Source of the DNA: Ignavibacteria bacterium
GTDB taxonomy: Bacteria > Bacteroidota > Ignavibacteria > UBA10030 > SZUA-254
DNA: 34,790 nt
Assembly: GCA_016178625.1 (NCBI GenBank)
Contig: JACOSX010000003.1
Coordinates: forward strand, 1 to 34,790
Direction: 5' to 3'
Shown: positions 134 to 34,726 of the stretch, in pieces
How the letters are laid out: each line of letters begins with the position of its first letter
Numbering within the stretch: position 1 is the first letter of the stretch
Program-made: the position numbers and the translations under genes
The notes under the pieces: generated by a model
Seen by the model: the letters and a program-made list of their open reading frames with translations, nothing else
The model's database searches: none
Told to the model about the DNA's origin: nothing

Positions 134-1567
134 CTACTTCATCAGCATGAACTTCTTTGTCGCAGTAAAATCTCCAGCCTGCAAACGGTAGAAGTAGACG
201 CCACTTGGGAGGTTCGCCGCGTTGAATTCCGCTGTATAGGCTCCCGCACTTTTCTCTTCAGCTACTAATGTCACCGCCTCTTCGCCAAGAATACTATAGA
301 CTTTCAGCGAAACCTTGGTGTCCTTTGGAAGATCGTAGCGGATCTTCGTCGTTGGGTTAAAGGGATTCGGATAGTTCTGATAGAGAGCAAATTCCTTGGG
401 AATCTCACGCTCAATGTCGTATATCAACCGAAGCTTCGCACCAAGGAAGTTTTCTTCCTTAATTGTTACGATCCCTTTTTCGCTAAGCTCGATTCTTTTC
501 GGTTTCTCCCCGTCGTAGAAGATCTCGAGAACCGCACCCTGGTTATCACCCGTACCATCCCAACTAACCGTAAGGGGGAACTCTCCACCCGTGATCGCAA
601 TAGGATAATTCTGGTTTGCCCCATCTGCATCCTTCATCACGGCTATCCGCTGCGAAGCAAATCGAACATCAAGAACCTCACCCGGAGGTGTGGGGGGAAG
701 TTCGAAGTCTTTCAGGTCGATCTCCTTAGGTTCAGTGGAATAGAATAAGCTGCGTTCCCTTCCCTCATGATCTCTGATGACAAGACGAGCAAACCTCGCT
801 GCAGCAAGAGCTTGCAACGCTCGTGGTCCCACGACCTTTTCCCTATTCCTCATGATGTTATCGGCAGAGGCTCCCGGAACCATCGTTGATGTCTTGAGAA
901 TGAGGGATCCATTCTGATTCACTTTCACCCAATAGCCAAGACCCGGTTTCAGCGTATCTTCGAAATAGAATCCTCCGATATTACTGTAACCGAAATATTG
1001 AGATCGAACGACCACAGGCGGAATGGGTGCGATGGCAGAGGTAGGCATCGGATACGACAACGCTCCGATCATATTCCATCCGGTATTCACATGGATTGTT
1101 TCGATCGGCACAGTTGATCCGGTGAATGCAACCGATTGGATCGAATTAAACTTGACCCAGTATCCTATGCCGATTTGCAACGTATCTTTTCTGACGTACC
1201 CAATGATAGGGTCAAATGTAAATGCGGAAGAGACTGCCGTTGGATACACTGATGTCTTCCGGAAGTCGCTGGTAATAAGCGGGACCGAGAGTATATTCCA
1301 TAGACCCTCGACAAACAAGCTCGCGTTTGCCGTTGTACCACCTTGCTGCCTCAATCCGGGAATGAATCCTTCTTCCAGAGTGAAACCCGGCGCGAGAGTT
1401 TTCTGCACATTGGACTGACCGATTGAGGCGGAAAGAGTGAGGCTTGCACCCGAAGATTTCCCTCCTCCGCCATCCGTGACCCACCATGGATGGGTCAGGG
1501 TCTGCCCAAGCAGTGCACAGGGCACAGCAACAAGCATGAGACTGAGTATACACGTTATCGTTTTCAT
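134..1567 (-). CDS. Secreted protein with C-terminal type IX secretion sorting domain
   Basis: A 477-residue exported protein. Residues 1-22 form a signal peptide ending at LLGQ. Residues about 27-72 carry a glycine-rich motif ending in GFTLEEGFIPG, a pattern common in surface proteins of this group. Residues 88-140 and 162-217 are two related repeats, each starting WN and ending GYWVK. The last ~80 residues are a type A T9SS sorting domain (YPNPFNPTTKIRYDLP, then GVYFYRLQAG and a basic FMLMK end), the signal for crossing the outer membrane through T9SS and surface attachment. The ATG at 1567 was chosen over 1597 because it directly precedes the signal peptide and has AGGTGA upstream; 1597 would overlap the preceding gene. 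It follows the fiber-like gene by 19 bp, suggesting an operon. Its substrate or ligand is unknown. Confidence 0.9.
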   Translation of the reverse strand: MKTITCILSLMLVAVPCALLGQTLTHPWWVTDGGGGKSSGASLTLSASIGQSNVQKTLAPGFTLEEGFIPGLRQQGGTTANASLFVEGLWNILSVPLITSDFRKTSVYPTAVSSAFTFDPIIGYVRKDTLQIGIGYWVKFNSIQSVAFTGSTVPIETIHVNTGWNMIGALSYPMPTSAIAPIPPVVVRSQYFGYSNIGGFYFEDTLKPGLGYWVKVNQNGSLILKTSTMVPGASADNIMRNREKVVGPRALQALAAARFARLVIRDHEGRERSLFYSTEPKEIDLKDFELPPTPPGEVLDVRFASQRIAVMKDADGANQNYPIAITGGEFPLTVSWDGTGDNQGAVLEIFYDGEKPKRIELSEKGIVTIKEENFLGAKLRLIYDIEREIPKEFALYQNYPNPFNPTTKIRYDLPKDTKVSLKVYSILGEEAVTLVAEEKSAGAYTAEFNAANLPSGVYFYRLQAGDFTATKKFMLMK

Positions 1568-1586
1568 TGATTCACCTGATTGGTAT

Positions 1587-3374
1587 TCATTTATCATTCG
1601 GTGACTGGTTATCTTGTTTAAGCTGTTGTAGTCGCGCGTTTAACAAATCACGCTCCGCCTTCTCCGCTTCCAAGCGTGCCTTCGATACCTTCAATTCAAG
1701 TTCACGGAGATCAACCTTGTACGCCTGCGTTTGATTCATACCAGATGCCTGTTCTCCATTAACTTCCATAGAACTCGAGTTCTGAAAATCGGACACTGTT
1801 GACGGAGATATAATGGTGCTCACCGAGCCGTAGGCTGTTGGGAAAAAGCTCGCAGTGATCACCGGGTTCCAAAACCATTTCGACCCAGCACCGGTGTTAT
1901 CGAGAGCTTCAAACCGGAAGGTGTATGTGCCTGCCGCCTTGTAATAAGTACGACGCATTGATACTGGAATCCACGTGGATCCACTCGGTGACGCAGTCCC
2001 AAAACCGACGTTGTACTCATAGTTGATGTCGTACGAACCTCCTGAAGTTTCGTCGATCTGACAAATCATAGAGTTTCCGCTGGTCGTTGAGCTGAAGCCA
2101 GCTTGAGCTGACGCCTCAACCACAATGTATCCAGCTGTTGGAATAGTTAGTGTGGTGGTGACAACATCAATCATTGTTGCCGTATTACCCGTAATGTCAA
2201 CTGTTGTGGTCTTTTGGATTCCTTGTGAAATACCGGGCTCATCGAGTATCTCGTTAGCAGAGATAGAACTGTCTGGCAGCACCACAGAGGCATTACCCGT
2301 TTGATCCATATGGAATCCAACTGAGCGGCTGTTGCCATAGATATCGACACGGGGTTCGCCTGTTCCAAAAGCATTACCGTCAACCGCAAATGCCGTCGAA
2401 CCGATGTCCTTGTAAACACCAAGATAGCCACCTCTGCCATTAACATCGGCTTCGATCTGAACCGCCATGTTGCTGCTGTCATCATAAACTCGGACTTGAC
2501 CACCAACAGAGGCAGAGTGATGCGACAATCGAACAACCGGAGAGGATGATCCATCTTGAAAGACGTGAACCGCCCCAGTCTGTGTAGAGTTACCCACTTG
2601 TACTGTGTCACCCGTGTTGATCTTGAAGTATGTGGAGAAGGCAGGCCAATAAAATACTGTGAGATTATTGTCGCCTTGTGTACCTATCGACCATTCGTCT
2701 AACCCTGCCGTCCGCAGTACGAAGTAAGCATTCTCCGCGGCATCTGACTTATCAGCCCAGAACCCTGCATACCCTCCACTCGACTTCGCCAGGACTTCGG
2801 CGAAGGAGCCCTGTACCTCAAAATTGAATCCATTGTTGGGGGGAGCCCCTACACCGAGGTATCCACTGGGCAAATAATAGTTGCCTGTCCCTGTGGGTAC
2901 TAAGGGACCCAGCGAATAGGCCGAACTCGCAAGTTCTGAACGAGGTGTAAAGGTGATCGGAACGGAAATACCCGGTCCTGCTGTCGCAGTGACTTGAACC
3001 CAGAGTGGTTGATAAAAGATTGCCGTTAGAGGTGTAACGGATCCAAGGAGGACACTGAAGGTTCCGCGTTGAATACTAACACCGGTTTGCGTCTCTGTCC
3101 AGATTGCAGAACCTCCGCTGCTTATGCTAAAAATCTCAAACTTTAAATCGTAGCTGCCATCGGTTGCCGGCGCACCCGAGGGTGAGGTGAGGAGTCCCTG
3201 ATACGACATCTTGTTCGGGATTGAAACAAATCCCCCTACTTTAGTTACTCGGTCCGGAGTACTACCACCACTCGTACTCACGCTCCGTGGCAAAGATGTC
3301 TTCGGGGCTTGGGCGAATGCCGTAATGCCGAGAAGGAAGCTGCCCGCTGCAAGCACTATCAAGAATCGTTTCAT
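1587..3374 (-). CDS. Secreted fiber-like protein with C-terminal coiled coil
   Basis: A 595-residue protein with a clean signal peptide (residues 1-22, ending AFAQA). Residues about 55-155 are the module seen in many secreted bacterial proteins, starting MSYQG and running through WTETQ, FSVLLGSVTPL and FTPRSELASSAYSLG. The middle (160-400) is low in charge and rich in Gly, Ser, Asn and Val, resembling beta-rich tail-fiber or adhesin stalks. Residues about 400-540 look like a C-terminal beta domain, and 550-590 form a charged coiled coil (ELELKVSKARLEAEKAERD) that could trimerise the protein. No peptidase S74 domain is visible. The start has AGGAGA seven bases upstream. It is first in a two-gene unit with the T9SS-sorted protein. 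Adhesin or surface fiber is an inference; no exact family name is claimed. Confidence 0.8.
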   Translation of the reverse strand: MKRFLIVLAAGSFLLGITAFAQAPKTSLPRSVSTSGGSTPDRVTKVGGFVSIPNKMSYQGLLTSPSGAPATDGSYDLKFEIFSISSGGSAIWTETQTGVSIQRGTFSVLLGSVTPLTAIFYQPLWVQVTATAGPGISVPITFTPRSELASSAYSLGPLVPTGTGNYYLPSGYLGVGAPPNNGFNFEVQGSFAEVLAKSSGGYAGFWADKSDAAENAYFVLRTAGLDEWSIGTQGDNNLTVFYWPAFSTYFKINTGDTVQVGNSTQTGAVHVFQDGSSSPVVRLSHHSASVGGQVRVYDDSSNMAVQIEADVNGRGGYLGVYKDIGSTAFAVDGNAFGTGEPRVDIYGNSRSVGFHMDQTGNASVVLPDSSISANEILDEPGISQGIQKTTTVDITGNTATMIDVVTTTLTIPTAGYIVVEASAQAGFSSTTSGNSMICQIDETSGGSYDINYEYNVGFGTASPSGSTWIPVSMRRTYYKAAGTYTFRFEALDNTGAGSKWFWNPVITASFFPTAYGSVSTIISPSTVSDFQNSSSMEVNGEQASGMNQTQAYKVDLRELELKVSKARLEAEKAERDLLNARLQQLKQDNQSPNDK

Positions 3375-26701: not shown

Positions 26702-26805
26702 AGAGGTCAAGCTACCCCATGTCACACAAGCATCACTTCTTACCGTTGCTTCCTTCCGGACCTGGCGGAGTTTGGAAGCTACTTGTTGCACAGGACTTGA
26801 CCTCT
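26702..26805 (-). ncRNA. ffs: Signal recognition particle RNA, small bacterial (4.5S) type
   Basis: The minus strand holds the universally conserved SRP loop GGTCCGGAAGGAAGCA (RNA across 26769-26749), which binds Ffh. The ends pair: AGAGGTCAAG (26805-26796) with CTTGACCTCT (26711-26702), a perfect 10-bp terminal helix. Seven T residues follow (26702-26696), completing an intrinsic-terminator-like end. The length of about 104 nt fits the short form without an Alu domain. With Ffh it directs nascent membrane proteins to FtsY and the Sec translocon. The exact 5' end may lie a few bases upstream, near 26812, given the promoter position. Confidence 0.96.
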
Positions 26806-26867: not shown

Positions 26868-27236
26868 TCACCTCGTAGTAACCCTCCGGATACAGGTCAA
26901 CAGATTATCCAGGTCGTAGGGCTTGGTGAGGTAATCGTTGGCTCCATTCTTGATCGATTCAAGGGCGATTGAAAGATCATCGACTGCCGTCAACATAATA
27001 ACGCGAGAAGACACCTTATGCTCCTTAAGGTACTTGAGCACCTCAATCCCACTTACTCGCGGCATACGGATATCAAGCAGGATCAAATCATACTTGTTTT
27101 TCTTGATCATGACAAGCGCAGTGTCGCCGTCATCAGCAGTTTCGACATCATATCCCTCGGACTGTAATTGATCGCTGACAACCAGTCGAAGCTGATCTTC
27201 ATCATCAACGAACAGTAGCCGTAGTTTCTTGTCCAT
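26868..27236 (-). CDS. Stand-alone response-regulator receiver protein
   Basis: A 122-residue CheY-like receiver with no output domain. All key residues are present: acidic pocket D11/D12 (FVDDED), phospho-acceptor D55 (LLDIRMP), switch T83 (MLTAVDD) and K105 (YLTKPYD). A single-domain receiver signals by protein contact rather than by binding DNA. A clear ribosome-binding site (GGAGAGAT) precedes the ATG. It is encoded 63 bp after the NfrB-like glycosyltransferase on the same strand, so it may control that system. No histidine kinase gene is in the window, so its phospho-donor is unknown. Confidence 0.93.
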   Translation of the reverse strand: MDKKLRLLFVDDEDQLRLVVSDQLQSEGYDVETADDGDTALVMIKKNKYDLILLDIRMPRVSGIEVLKYLKEHKVSSRVIMLTAVDDLSIALESIKNGANDYLTKPYDLDNLLTCIRRVTTR

Positions 27237-27299
27237 ACATCTCTCCGAAAAAGAAATTATGAGTACAGTGTGGAATTAGTTTCTATCCGTATGTGAATC

Positions 27300-28709
27300 T
27301 CAGTGCGAAACGTGTTCAGAGGTCGCGGGAAAATGGTGCGCTGTTTTTTCCCATCGCAGTTCCTTCTTCCTTATCGCGGCTCTAAAATACTGGAAGAGTG
27401 CGCGACCGGTCGCACTGAAGTTGATAATATTTGAGATGGGCAATCGCACAACGCTTAACAATGCTGCCCACCCACCATACACGCGCCTGACCGTGATGAA
27501 GCGGTGCATAATTCGCCACATCATCAATACGCTGTCCATCACCACCAAATACCAAAGAGGAGTTCCTTTCACCACAATGGGCGGTAGTTGTTGGTAGGCG
27601 GCGAAGCCAAAACGGATTGATTCATATGTCATCAGGTACGCGATCACAACGTACGCAAAGAAGTTGATCGCGTTGGCGAGGATCGCCTTTCTATCACGAT
27701 ATAAAACGAACCGGAACCGTGCATCTCCCTGCCACCCAATTTTTTTCCACGACTGGAGACAAATGCCTGTGACCCACCGACTCTTTTGACGGATCGAAGC
27801 CCTCATAGAGTGTGGAAAAAAACCGCGTGTCGCACAATTAATGCCGAACGGTTTGAATGCAAACAACATATTTGCCTTCCCCAGAGCTAACCGAAGCGCA
27901 AGATCGTAATCTTCCGTCAGCGAAGTGGCGTGAAAGATATTTTTCGCATACGAAGTTCCGACAAATTCGATAATCCATCGGTTGAATGCGGTGCCAACGC
28001 CAGCCGATGGAACGAAACCGCTGAAGTGTTGTCGGACGAAAAGATCTTTTGTATGATACTCTGCAAATTCATCAGAGTATGTCCAGTGAACGAGGTTTGC
28101 GTGGCTGGTATGGAGGGGAAACACAGGAAGCTGTACCATGTCGTGATCGGGAATCAGCACGTTATGAATCTTCAACGACATTGGATGGATAACATCTTCT
28201 GAATCGTGCATGATAATGATATCGTAGCGAATCCCAGTTTTGTTTTCCCACCGAAGCATGCCTTCATGGATTTGATTGAGGTTGTCTGCCTTCGTCGTGG
28301 GTCCGGGATTATTTGAGATGACCGCGTGGACGTTAGGGAATCGCGTACTTACTTCTTCCACTTTCGTGATAGTTTGCGGATCGTTGGGATAGACACCGAC
28401 GAAAATGTCATAGTTCTTATACTGGATCGTGCGACACGCATTCGTCAGCATTTTATCGATAACATCATACTCATGCCATGCAGGAACGTAGATCGCGATC
28501 GGCTTTTCGGGAACCTGATGGATGATCTCCGGTGAGTCATACCGGTACCGATTGAATTTCTTCCGCATGAAGAGATGATGAAACCAATAATACATATCCA
28601 CGAAGATATCATCGATGCCGCTCATGAAAAGGAACGACGCTACGATAAACGTCGCAATATAGAGCGACGGATATGATGAGCGGAAAAAGGAGATTAACAA
28701 GTCAATCAT
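27300..28709 (-). CDS. NfrB-like membrane family-2 glycosyltransferase
   Basis: A 469-residue processive-type glycosyltransferase. A membrane helix (about 15-40) precedes the catalytic domain (70-330), with IAIYVPAWHEYDVI, the nucleotide/metal site HDSED (168-172), the acceptor motif TEDYD (265-269) and QKSRWVTG (308-315, the QxxRW motif). Three to four membrane helices follow (345-435). The RQKSRWVTGICLQSW segment and overall layout match E. coli NfrB, the inner-membrane synthase of the glycan used by phage N4 as receptor. E. coli NfrB carries a C-terminal c-di-GMP-binding MshEN domain; here the protein ends soon after the last helix. It starts 3 bp after the NfrA-like stop. Activity and sugar are inferred. 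Confidence 0.87.
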   Translation of the reverse strand: MIDLLISFFRSSYPSLYIATFIVASFLFMSGIDDIFVDMYYWFHHLFMRKKFNRYRYDSPEIIHQVPEKPIAIYVPAWHEYDVIDKMLTNACRTIQYKNYDIFVGVYPNDPQTITKVEEVSTRFPNVHAVISNNPGPTTKADNLNQIHEGMLRWENKTGIRYDIIIMHDSEDVIHPMSLKIHNVLIPDHDMVQLPVFPLHTSHANLVHWTYSDEFAEYHTKDLFVRQHFSGFVPSAGVGTAFNRWIIEFVGTSYAKNIFHATSLTEDYDLALRLALGKANMLFAFKPFGINCATRGFFPHSMRASIRQKSRWVTGICLQSWKKIGWQGDARFRFVLYRDRKAILANAINFFAYVVIAYLMTYESIRFGFAAYQQLPPIVVKGTPLWYLVVMDSVLMMWRIMHRFITVRRVYGGWAALLSVVRLPISNIINFSATGRALFQYFRAAIRKKELRWEKTAHHFPATSEHVSH

Positions 28710-28712
28710 AGA

Positions 28713-29906
28713 TCAAAAAGTCCGATCAAAAATGACGTAAAACCTCGCGCTGCCGTAGTAGCGATCGTACGGAAGCGGAGTTGCAGTCACAAGATTAACG
28801 TAATACCCTCGGCGAACTTCGGCAACAAGATACAATCCCCAATGGACATTCGGTGTGATGCGAGCACCGAATCCACCTTCAATAATGTTGTTATAATATT
28901 CCTTCTCAGAATCTTTCGCAAAGCCAACGAGGGCATACACATCAGCCACTGTGCTGGACACTTCGAGAGAACGAAGACCCCCTTTGACCTGGAGATATCC
29001 TATGGTGTTCTTGTAGCGAGAATAGTATCCGAGCGATGAATAAAGATCGAGCGTCGGATAGAATGGCGTTCGGACATCATCATGGAACGAATATGGTGCA
29101 TACATCCCATACCCGTAGATCGCAATCGCACGGAAATCATTCCGAACAAAATCGATATTGCTTCTGTCTATAAGATCAAACGACGCGCCTTCTTGAACAT
29201 GAACCTGCAGCCCCGTAAACGGATTCACGCGCACACCCAGAGCCATGACCAAAGCATTATCGGAGAATATTGCTGGTGAGAGTCCGCCGCTTGAGCGTGC
29301 ATCTCCCGAGAGTGAGACAAAACCATATGCGCTTACTTTCTGATCGTCGGTAAGGTGATAACCTTCATATGCAGTGAGCTGAAAGAACGAGGTACTCCAC
29401 CGCGTGTCGTAATACGAGACGCCGTAGAAACGTGTCCACCAGAGCGAAGAAGTGGCCCCATATGATACGCTCAACGCCCTTTCACGAATGTCCGGGATTG
29501 TGCTTGATTGCAGAGCATTTAATATGTGATCCGCATCCGCTTGACGATGTGAACGAATAAGGATGTAAGCAATCTGAAGCTTGGTTGAGTCCGATGGTTG
29601 CAGGCTATCGGCTGCTTGGAATTGCGCGAGCGCCAAATCATTTTTTTTCTCAGACAGATACAGATAGCCGAGCTGTTTCCTGATAAGAACATTCGATGGA
29701 TCCATTATTACCGCCTTCTCGAAATAACGCTCTGCGTCGGGTGAATTTACCCTGAGCATCGAATAGGCACGCGCCACAATACTCGCCAGTGATGTATCCT
29801 GCGAGACTTGGGTTTGAGATTGGGGTTGATTACTCCCTGCACTGATGAGAAGAAGAAGGAGGAAAGCGGAGCTCTTTCGGAGGAGGCTTATGGACCATTT
29901 CATCAT
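28713..29906 (-). CDS. NfrA-like outer-membrane TPR/beta-barrel protein
   Basis: A 397-residue exported protein. The signal peptide (residues about 1-30) has a run of leucines. Residues about 38-150 form roughly three TPR-type helical repeats (AERYFEKAVIMDPSN, LGYLYLSEKKNDLALAQFQAAD). Residues about 155-397 are aromatic-rich alternating strands ending in Phe (FYVIFDRTF), as in outer-membrane barrels. TPR plus barrel, encoded directly before an NfrB-like synthase, matches NfrA, the outer-membrane export partner of the E. coli N4 glycan system. At about 400 residues it is much shorter than E. coli NfrA (about 990). ATG 29906 or 29903 is the likely start. Assignment rests on architecture and linkage. 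Confidence 0.75.
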   Translation of the reverse strand: MMKWSISLLRKSSAFLLLLLISAGSNQPQSQTQVSQDTSLASIVARAYSMLRVNSPDAERYFEKAVIMDPSNVLIRKQLGYLYLSEKKNDLALAQFQAADSLQPSDSTKLQIAYILIRSHRQADADHILNALQSSTIPDIRERALSVSYGATSSLWWTRFYGVSYYDTRWSTSFFQLTAYEGYHLTDDQKVSAYGFVSLSGDARSSGGLSPAIFSDNALVMALGVRVNPFTGLQVHVQEGASFDLIDRSNIDFVRNDFRAIAIYGYGMYAPYSFHDDVRTPFYPTLDLYSSLGYYSRYKNTIGYLQVKGGLRSLEVSSTVADVYALVGFAKDSEKEYYNNIIEGGFGARITPNVHWGLYLVAEVRRGYYVNLVTATPLPYDRYYGSARFYVIFDRTF

Positions 29907-31598: not shown

Positions 31599-34154
31599 AT
31601 GCACATTCCAACAATTGTATTGCTCATTTTCTGTGCCTGGACTGTCCGGGCACAAGTTCAACAATTCCCCTTCACCGAAAATTTTGATAGCGTTACTGTC
31701 CCCTCCCTTCCCCCGGGGTGGTCGACAACTACGAACCGATCACCCTCGGGAGATTTTGCAACAACCAAGTCAACACCGCACTCTGATTCCACCGCGGTCA
31801 TCAGCACGAATGCTACAATCACACAGAACCTCATATCCCCACGGCTGGATTTCTCTACCAAGGAAGCAGACAGCCTGAAGTTTTATGAACGACGATCAAG
31901 TAGCCATAACTCCGGCGTCATCATTGAAGCCTCAGTTGACGCTGGCGCAACATTTCCGATCGTTATCAGTGATACATTGAAAAACCCTGGCGTGACATCA
32001 TACATCCTCCGAGTCCTGAGACTTCCTCCCACGCTGAGCAACCAAACACGCTGCCGGATCCGTTGGCGAGTTATTGGCAATGGAACAGGTACAAGCGGAA
32101 CGCTCCGGTTCGATGACATTATCATCACTGCACTTGCCCACATCGACGCAGAAGTGATAGCCGTGAGGTTCTCCCCCAATCTGCCAGTCACAGGAGACTC
32201 CGTGTTCGTGCAAGCCACTGTAAGAAATGCCGGCACTCAAACAATCCAAAATATTCCTGTCGAGTTTTATGACGATATCAATAATAACAATCTGCCAGAG
32301 CCGAGTGAGCTGATTTTTTCGATGACAATGACTGTTAGCCTCCAACCCGGCGATACCGCGATCGCGGAGACGAAGCTTTCCAATCTTACTTTCGGGAAGA
32401 AACATCTCATCGTCAGAACTGCGCTCGCTCAAGATCAGAATCCCCTCAACAACCAAAGGAGCGCGACGCTCTCGGTGGGAGTACCGCGATTTACGATCGT
32501 CGTGAACGAGATCATGTACAGCCCGGAAAACCCCGAACCGGAATGGATCGAGTTAACGAGCAACACGACGGATTCCATCAATGTAAGCCAATGGGGCATC
32601 TCCGACCGTAACAGCGGAACGCAATACAAGATCGATTCAGTCGATCAATGGATGAAGCGCGGCGACTACATCGTCATCACGAAAGACTCCGCTCGGTTCA
32701 CCGATCGTCATCCCGATGTTCGGCGAATTATTTTCATTCCCTCGATGCCATCGAGCCTGTTCAACAACGACAGCGATGCGGTTGTGTTATTCGACGAGCG
32801 CCGCGCGATCATTGATAGCATACACTACACTTCAATCTGGGGCGGAACGGGTGGTCGTTCTCTGGAGCGTATTGAATCCTCACACAGCTCGAACGATTCA
32901 TTGAATTGGGGATTGTCCGCCGATTCATCTGGCAGCACACCCGGAAAGCAAAACTATTTGACACCGCTTGAGCACGATCTTCGTGCTGTGCGCCTCTCAG
33001 CGGTGAATTCAACACCAACCTCAACTTTTATTTCCGTAGTCGTTCGTAATATGGGACGTCAGAGTGCAAATAGTTTTTCTGTTCTCCTCTACTATGATGC
33101 AAATGGTGATCACGTCGCACAGCCAATGGAGCTCCTGGAATCTCAAGCCGCTCTCTCTCCCCTCCCACCGCGAGACTCTACATCATTCACCTTCAACTGG
33201 AACAACCCAAGCTCAGGCAAGAAATCCTTCATCACCACCATCGACTTTCCACAAGATATGCGGCCATCGGATAATATCGTGATCGACTCGATCAATATTT
33301 CCTTCACGTCTAATTCTCTTATCATCAATGAGATCATGTACGAACCGCGTACCGGACAAGCGGAGTATGTCGAGCTGTTTAACCGAAGCACCGCACCCAT
33401 TGATGTAAGGGAGTGGAGGCTTTCTGACGTTCGAGATACGAACGAACGATCGACAACACATATCGTAAGTCAATCGTCAATGATTATTGAAGCGGGAGAA
33501 TATGTGGTCGTTGCGTCCGACTCGTCCATTCTTCAAAGCTATCCGTACCTCACGGATTCTGGATCCCATCTGGTCATCAGAAGAAGTGGAATTAGTCTGA
33601 ATAACCAAGGGGACAACATTCTGCTCACCGACCTGACCGGACGAACAATCGATAGCGTGCATTACTTGCCGACATGGCACAACGCGGGGGTTGAAGATGT
33701 CTTGGGAAGGTCGCTTGAACGGATCAATCCCAATCTTCCCGGCAACGACCGTCGTAATTGGAGCACAAGCGCTTCTCCTACTGGCGGGACACCCGGCAAG
33801 CAGAACACACTCTACACGACCGCAGTGCCTGCTGCAACTGCGCTATCGTTCTCCCCTAATCCCTTCTCACCCGATGGCGATGGATTCGAAGATGTCACGC
33901 TCGTGAGCTACGAGCTTCCTGCAACAACGGCGATCGTGCGTGTGAGGATTTATGATGCGAAAGGACGATTGATCCGCACTCTTGCCGATGGTGAGCCGAG
34001 TGGTTCTCGCGGTCAACTCGTCTGGGATGGATTCACAGACAATCACGATCGCGCACGAATGGGAATATACATTGTCTTGCTCGAAGCCCTCGACGCATAT
34101 GGCGGGAATGTGCAGAACGTAAAAGGTGTGGTTGTGGTTGCTGCAAAAATGTAA
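31599..34154 (+). CDS. Large secreted lamin-tail/CARDB surface protein with C-terminal FlgD-like domain
   Basis: An 851-residue protein. It has a signal peptide (1-18, ending VRA), an N-terminal beta domain beginning FTENFDSVTVPSLPPGW (about 22-180), then a duplicated unit. Unit 1 is a CARDB-like Ig domain (182-293) plus a lamin-tail domain (299-452; IVVNEIMYSPENPEPEWIEL). Unit 2 is CARDB-like (458-570) plus lamin-tail (573-736; LIINEIMYEPRTGQAEYVEL). Both lamin-tail domains end in STPGKQN/GTPGKQN. Residues 748-851 form a FlgD-like/CHU_C-like Ig domain (FSPNPFSPDGDGFEDV, then RVRIYDAKGRLIRTL and MGIYIVLLEA), common at the ends of T9SS cargo. Ligand and role are unknown; cell-surface adhesion or scaffold is an inference. 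GGGAGG lies just before the ATG, inside a hairpin. Confidence 0.9.
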   Translation: MHIPTIVLLIFCAWTVRAQVQQFPFTENFDSVTVPSLPPGWSTTTNRSPSGDFATTKSTPHSDSTAVISTNATITQNLISPRLDFSTKEADSLKFYERRSSSHNSGVIIEASVDAGATFPIVISDTLKNPGVTSYILRVLRLPPTLSNQTRCRIRWRVIGNGTGTSGTLRFDDIIITALAHIDAEVIAVRFSPNLPVTGDSVFVQATVRNAGTQTIQNIPVEFYDDINNNNLPEPSELIFSMTMTVSLQPGDTAIAETKLSNLTFGKKHLIVRTALAQDQNPLNNQRSATLSVGVPRFTIVVNEIMYSPENPEPEWIELTSNTTDSINVSQWGISDRNSGTQYKIDSVDQWMKRGDYIVITKDSARFTDRHPDVRRIIFIPSMPSSLFNNDSDAVVLFDERRAIIDSIHYTSIWGGTGGRSLERIESSHSSNDSLNWGLSADSSGSTPGKQNYLTPLEHDLRAVRLSAVNSTPTSTFISVVVRNMGRQSANSFSVLLYYDANGDHVAQPMELLESQAALSPLPPRDSTSFTFNWNNPSSGKKSFITTIDFPQDMRPSDNIVIDSINISFTSNSLIINEIMYEPRTGQAEYVELFNRSTAPIDVREWRLSDVRDTNERSTTHIVSQSSMIIEAGEYVVVASDSSILQSYPYLTDSGSHLVIRRSGISLNNQGDNILLTDLTGRTIDSVHYLPTWHNAGVEDVLGRSLERINPNLPGNDRRNWSTSASPTGGTPGKQNTLYTTAVPAATALSFSPNPFSPDGDGFEDVTLVSYELPATTAIVRVRIYDAKGRLIRTLADGEPSGSRGQLVWDGFTDNHDRARMGIYIVLLEALDAYGGNVQNVKGVVVVAAKM

Positions 34155-34219: not shown

Positions 34220-34726
34220 ATGGCATATCGTCAAATCCAATTCCTGCCGGCGAATTATTATCATATCTATAACCGCGGCAACAATCGGCAAGATATATTC
34301 CTCGAACATGAGAACTATCGGTTCTTTCTCAGGCGACTGCATCATTATTTTCATCAGGCAGGTATTGATGTAATCGCATATTGCCTCATGCCAAATCACT
34401 TCCATCTGCTTGTCTACTTCCAGCGAGAAGTCAGCTTCTCAAATGTCATGCGATCCTTCTCCGTCTCGTACACCAAGTCATTTAACAAATGGAGCAAGAG
34501 AGTTGGACACCTTTTCCAAAGCGATTATCGGGCGCGGGAAATAAATGTTGAAAAATATCTCTTTCATATTTGTCGTTACATTCACCTCAATCCGGTTCAA
34601 GGAGGCTTAGTGTCCATCCCTGAGGACTGGGCTTACTCAGACTACAGGGAATGGGTCAAGTCCTTTTTTCTGTGTAAAACGTTTCAGAGGCTACGCTGCC
34701 AGTTGGTACGATATGAATTTTGTTAA
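34220..34726 (+). CDS. REP-associated tyrosine transposase-like (Y1/HUH) protein
   Basis: A 168-residue Y1 transposase-domain protein. The HUH metal-binding motif is H60-F61-H62 in YCLMPNHFHLLV, and the helix RYIHLNPVQGGL (from R119) carries the likely nucleophilic tyrosine Y120. The opening (NYYHIYNRGNNRQDIF) and GHLFQSDYRAREI are typical of the RAYT branch of IS200/IS605-type enzymes, which cut single-stranded DNA at REP hairpins. The C-terminus after WAYSDYREWV is not family-like and may be altered; one base less in a six-T run near residue 149 would open a different frame to the window edge. AAGGA precedes the ATG. A 15-bp palindrome lies 22 bp upstream. Neither end of an element could be fixed. 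Confidence 0.9.
   Translation: MAYRQIQFLPANYYHIYNRGNNRQDIFLEHENYRFFLRRLHHYFHQAGIDVIAYCLMPNHFHLLVYFQREVSFSNVMRSFSVSYTKSFNKWSKRVGHLFQSDYRAREINVEKYLFHICRYIHLNPVQGGLVSIPEDWAYSDYREWVKSFFLCKTFQRLRCQLVRYEFC

Follow-up and report, generated by a model that had tools for sequence, protein, structure and literature searches.

The question raised by this locus is how a processive glycosyltransferase (GT) of the NfrB type may be controlled where the c-di-GMP-binding domain of its E. coli relative is missing and a gene for a stand-alone receiver is found instead. The nature of NfrB as a c-di-GMP-controlled synthase was explained only recently: c-di-GMP bound at the C-terminal MshEN domain of the E. coli protein is proposed to be an allosteric activator of the GT, and 1,705 of 1,841 NfrB homologues, surveyed among proteobacteria and a few Gram-positives, carry an MshEN domain (PMC8669469). 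The window analyzed here, a stretch of 34,790 nucleotides, is contig 5 of a draft genome (3.36 Mb, 97% complete). A preliminary description of it had proposed a compact NfrA/NfrB-type glycan system in an FCB bacterium, perhaps controlled through a receiver instead of c-di-GMP. The FCB reading was correct, since the named relatives that carry the GT are metagenome-assembled Ignavibacteriae and Bacteroidetes.

Organization of the locus

The three genes lie on the minus strand. The first encodes an outer-membrane (OM) TPR/beta-barrel exporter of 397 amino acids (28713-29906, with its ATG at 29906), and a spacer of 3 bp (28710-28712) separates its stop codon from the start of the 469-residue GT (27300-28709). 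After a gap of 63 bp follows the receiver, a single-domain response regulator of 122 amino acids (26868-27236). Downstream of the module are a bacterial small SRP RNA, which lies outside it (26702-26802, minus strand; Rfam RF00169, 68.5 bits), and then an RNase E/G-like gene (rng), a transaldolase gene and gcvT; upstream, on the opposite strand, is an M20 peptidase gene.

In relatives, the OM and GT genes are mostly 3 bp apart in family f1 and overlap shortly in family f2, which makes their translational coupling likely. The promoter and terminator scan found nothing like a terminator on the minus strand of the 63 bp GT-receiver gap, and the one promoter-like match there is of a kind that, when single, constitutes no evidence. 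Elsewhere in the window we observed a protein with a Por secretion tail (134-1597, minus strand), a large exported protein in which two lamin-tail domains were matched and whose C-terminus is FlgD-like (31599-34154, plus strand) and, close to the contig edge, an IS200-like (Y1) transposase gene (34220-34726, plus strand).

The glycosyltransferase is an NfrB-type synthase by sequence

The GT matches the Pfam GT2 families and scores 431.3 bits against the wider-family NfrB-type model NCBIfam NF011305, above its curated cut-off of 409; against the equivalog for c-di-GMP-activated NfrB (NF008411) it scores 412.6 bits, below the cut-off of 1170. Its GT part shares 37% identity with E. coli NfrB, and the motifs HDxED, TED and QxxRW show no variation in the alignment. 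In the window's GT they read HDSED (residues 168-172; 28194-28208), TED (residues 265-267; 27909-27917) and QKSRW, the signature of processive GTs (residues 308-312; 27774-27788), all on the minus strand. Its D169 and D267 align with E. coli active-site residues, and counterparts of D169, D267 and W330, which are needed for the function of E. coli NfrB (PMC8669469), are all present.

No MshEN domain was matched in the GT, whereas the E. coli NfrB control showed one. The protein stops at residue 469, about 15 residues past the conserved W-x-K-T-x-H motif, at a place where E. coli NfrB runs on into MshEN; nor was a PilZ domain matched. As the sequence profile of the GT found no solved structure, we used a fold comparison. 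The AlphaFold model employed (mean pLDDT 82; the remaining four models reached only 55-67) gave cellulose synthase BcsA as the top Foldseek match, along with a mannosyltransferase and hyaluronan synthases. By these comparisons the GT is an NfrB-type synthase that lacks MshEN, as had been proposed. Among 395 sampled genomes of the phylum, strong matches to it were restricted to the window's class. The absence of MshEN alone is not new, since relatives of NfrB without it are known elsewhere, for example in Sphingomonas (456 amino acids).

The outer-membrane partner is predicted to combine a TPR domain and a barrel

The OM protein has an N-terminal signal peptide and ends in VIFDRTF, its last residue being phenylalanine. 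Its only sequence-level domain matches were weak ones to Pfam TPR families. A structure model built from its family (A3, 17 orthologues) reached a mean pLDDT of 85 and comprises the signal helix, seven helices in a TPR-like region (residues 40-150; 29457-29789, minus strand) and, besides one short strand, 12 long strands predicted to form a barrel (residues 156-396; 28719-29441, minus strand). BcsC was the top solved-structure match of the whole model (Foldseek), and the helical part matched TPR proteins with VIA Z values of 15-17. The model thus bears out the exported, compact TPR/barrel protein that had been described upstream of the GT.

Its relationship to NfrA is another matter. NfrA_C (PF13283) had no match in the OM protein or in 18 genomes, while the E. 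coli control was positive. A whole-protein hhalign comparison with NfrA gave a probability of 91.5%, carried by the TPR part; the barrel-only profile comparison gave a weak 12% (E 0.0025). With the barrel at 12% and PF13283 absent, we do not claim that the OM partner is an NfrA homologue or a member of the NfrA family; its model suggests that it works like NfrA or BcsC. The earlier label of an NfrA/NfrB-type pair is supported for the GT, with its 431.3 bits and 37% identity, and unsupported for the OM protein.

The receiver accompanies the synthase throughout the order

The receiver consists of a receiver domain only (Pfam Response_reg, E 1.5e-31). In the alignment, D12, the phospho-acceptor D55, T83 and K105 are invariant in all 16 orthologues, and the protein carries the residue set of EpsW-type regulators (phospho-acceptor Asp, acidic residue, Thr/Ser, Lys).

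Sampled genomes of the window's order contain 18 GT loci, in families f1, f2, f4, f5 and f6. The receiver gene lies directly downstream of the GT at all 17 readable loci, although at one of them the contig ends within the receiver; the remaining locus (G048), where the contig end falls inside the GT itself, is excluded from this count. The order OM-GT-receiver, on one strand, holds at every testable GT locus, so that the presence of the receiver beside the pair, as described for the window, extends to its relatives. This recurrence exceeds chance, and as the genes outside the trio vary between families, general synteny fails to explain the adjacency. In genome G003, from the window's own family, the rng-transaldolase-gcvT synteny is kept while all three module genes are absent as a block.

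Against a profile built from them, the GT-adjacent receivers score 174-205 bits, while the best other receiver in the 34 genomes reaches at most 159 and none in the 13 members of the order that lack the GT exceeds about 151. The adjacent receivers are, on these scores, a distinct subfamily, with the proviso that the gap is partly circular because the profile derives from GT-adjacent copies. The receiver tree (2 changes, AU p 0.148) fits one origin without demonstrating or rejecting it, as 122 columns are too few to decide.

These data bear on the strongest competing explanation, namely that the receiver is co-transcribed and acts elsewhere (on a motor, a phosphorelay or a transcription factor), its link to the GT being co-expression in a surface-lifestyle programme. 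Single-domain receivers commonly act at a distance, the window's genome holds 75 Response_reg matches, no histidine kinase gene was found within the window, and the GT and receiver genes are separated by 63 bp rather than overlapping. That the two genes adjoin at each of the 17 testable loci amid varying outer neighbours argues against this explanation, as do the joint absence of GT and receiver from G003 and, with the circularity just mentioned, the finding that the subfamily never occurs away from the GT in 34 genomes. We regard action elsewhere as unlikely, if far from negligible.

The same conservation weighs on a second alternative, that the system is an orthodox NfrBA-like one without MshEN, constitutive or controlled only through expression, in which the receiver is a hitchhiker. 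Proteobacterial NfrB relatives without MshEN (Sphingomonas, and those beyond the 1,705 of 1,841 with the domain, PMC8669469) offer a precedent for it. A hitchhiker would not, however, be expected to keep its position and its phosphorylation residues over five families, and the OM protein has no NfrA_C match; we consider this alternative very improbable.

c-di-GMP signalling in the host genomes

A GGDEF protein occurs in all 14 trio genomes searched (at least one each, mostly a conserved protein of about 680 amino acids), the window's genome encoding one. This could be taken to favour a c-di-GMP control of the module that persists by way of a separate adaptor or a local diguanylate cyclase, with the receiver feeding that route. 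GGDEF proteins are, however, equally common in those members of the order that lack the GT (12 of 13) and so do not track the module; being order-wide, their presence was rejected as a test of c-di-GMP control. The GT lacks MshEN, and no GGDEF gene was found within the window, all of which leaves this route with little probability. The single MshEN match in the window's genome is in a different ORF, on contig 30. The proposal that a receiver stands in for c-di-GMP consequently holds at the level of the protein, which has no MshEN, and does not extend to the cell, which encodes a GGDEF protein.

Sister families and the candidate substrate

In two families of the same class outside the window's order (f10 and f17), the OM-GT pair is present without this receiver, which is therefore no universal requirement. 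At several of these loci, a WecB-type UDP-GlcNAc 2-epimerase gene comes next after the pair, in the receiver's place (L079 7802-8932, L080 8794-9942, L081 6476-7627, L089 4042-5223, L091 6480-7661 and L092 6833-8017), which supports UDP-ManNAc as a candidate substrate; linkage to WecB has also been reported for NfrB (PMC8669469). In the window's genome, a canonical WecB gene lies unlinked to the module (G000:C122, 408 bits). As most GT-less relatives carry WecB as well, its presence does not single out the substrate, and we rejected it as a substrate test because it does not discriminate. YbcH (DUF4434) was found in none of the 18 genomes, the window's included, with a positive E. coli control.

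Family f10 showed a peculiarity of its own: in 14 of the 16 genomes with matches, two adjacent genes share the NfrB-like GT between them (L079 4855-7741, L080 5272-8629 and L083 5716-8862; further loci are L084, L085, L086, L087, L088 and L093). At all nine loci read, the motifs are partitioned, HDxED lying in gene A (the N-terminal half) and TED and QxxRW in gene B (the C-terminal half). Gene A often continues with a hydrophobic stretch and then a SPOR-like domain, several of whose matches are below Pfam's cut-off, and gene B has roughly 115-720 extra N-terminal residues, with a DUF772 (transposase-domain) match at four loci. In the two genomes whose GT is intact, about 36 residues are inserted at the split site. 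Judged by its motifs, the f10 enzyme looks like one GT put together from two polypeptides; no paper with the term 'split glycosyltransferase' was found in the literature collection searched. Near the split GT is encoded a secreted hydrolase of the alpha/beta type that carries a Por-type sorting tail (L080 10102-12186, L083 3637-5682, with similar ORFs at other f10 loci), possibly a glycan-modifying enzyme.

A proposed mechanism

The computational analysis establishes the genes, their families, their predicted folds and order, the block absence in one relative and the intact phosphorylation site of the receiver. On this basis we propose, with a probability of about 60%, that the three genes belong together as a synthase-dependent glycan module in which the phosphorylated receiver would bind the GT and switch its activity. 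In this scheme, (i) the GT would polymerize a UDP-sugar at the cytoplasmic face, most likely UDP-ManNAc or UDP-GlcNAc, and move the growing chain through the inner membrane; (ii) in the periplasm, the OM protein would take up the chain by its TPR domain and release it through the 12-strand barrel; (iii) an unlinked histidine kinase would phosphorylate the receiver at D55; and (iv) the phosphorylated receiver would bind the cytoplasmic domain of the GT and switch its activity, thereby taking over, for this GT, what the regulatory C-terminal MshEN/c-di-GMP domain does for E. coli NfrB. We infer the nature of the sugar and of the kinase, the sign of the control and the direct contact of GT and receiver; activation appears more likely than inhibition.

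We favour phosphorylation-dependent binding because MshEN is missing, a receiver gene is found instead, and there is a precedent in Myxococcus, where EpsZ, a phosphoglycosyl transferase, is activated through its interaction with the phosphorylated single-domain regulator EpsW (PMC12802240; 2025). The conservation of the trio across five families likewise suggests switching of the GT by phosphorylation rather than through a c-di-GMP domain. The more demanding form of the proposal, that in all five families a phosphorylated stand-alone receiver replaces MshEN and directly gates a processive polysaccharide synthase, we put forward only tentatively, as somewhat short of an even chance. If true, it would place enzymes of a family noted for control by c-di-GMP under a two-component system, and two-component signals would reach a synthase-dependent pathway with no second messenger in between. 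The known range of the NfrB family itself now takes in Ignavibacteria-type Bacteroidota, where another regulator is kept alongside. As the module is small (three genes, about 3 kb), it should be easily testable in a laboratory host.

Comparison with known systems

Cellulose synthesis by BcsA/BcsC resembles the proposed module in combining a processive inner-membrane GT2 with a TPR-barrel exporter, BcsA and BcsC being the top structural matches here, and PNAG synthesis by PgaC/PgaA combines the same two elements. Unlike these systems, the present locus shows no PilZ match and no adjoining BcsB-like gene, and in its exporter the TPR domain is short and the predicted barrel has 12 strands.

With the E. 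coli NfrB/NfrA(/YbcH) N4-glycan receptor system, the module shares the GT family, the catalytic motifs and a TPR and outer-membrane barrel partner within the gene cluster. It differs in that the GT lacks MshEN and is followed by a receiver gene, in its gene order (OM-GT, as opposed to GT-OM in E. coli), in the length of the OM protein (397 amino acids and no NfrA_C match, against 990 for NfrA) and in that no YbcH is encoded in the genome, unlike in the NfrBA-YbcH operon. NfrB relatives from Sphingomonas and Variovorax similarly end soon after the GT domain or have a partial C-terminal region, but they have no adjoining receiver; the MshEN-less Sphingomonas protein has no annotated exporter next to it, and the Variovorax gene has wecB and BcsB-like neighbours.

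The closest regulatory parallel is EpsW-EpsZ of M. xanthus (PMC12802240), in which, as suggested here, a stand-alone receiver is the proposed post-translational controller of a polysaccharide transferase. EpsZ is a monotopic phosphoglycosyl transferase that starts a Wzx/Wzy pathway, whereas the enzyme described here is a predicted processive GT2 synthase of a synthase-dependent pathway; direct gating, if true, would thus be the counterpart in the latter of what EpsW does in the former.
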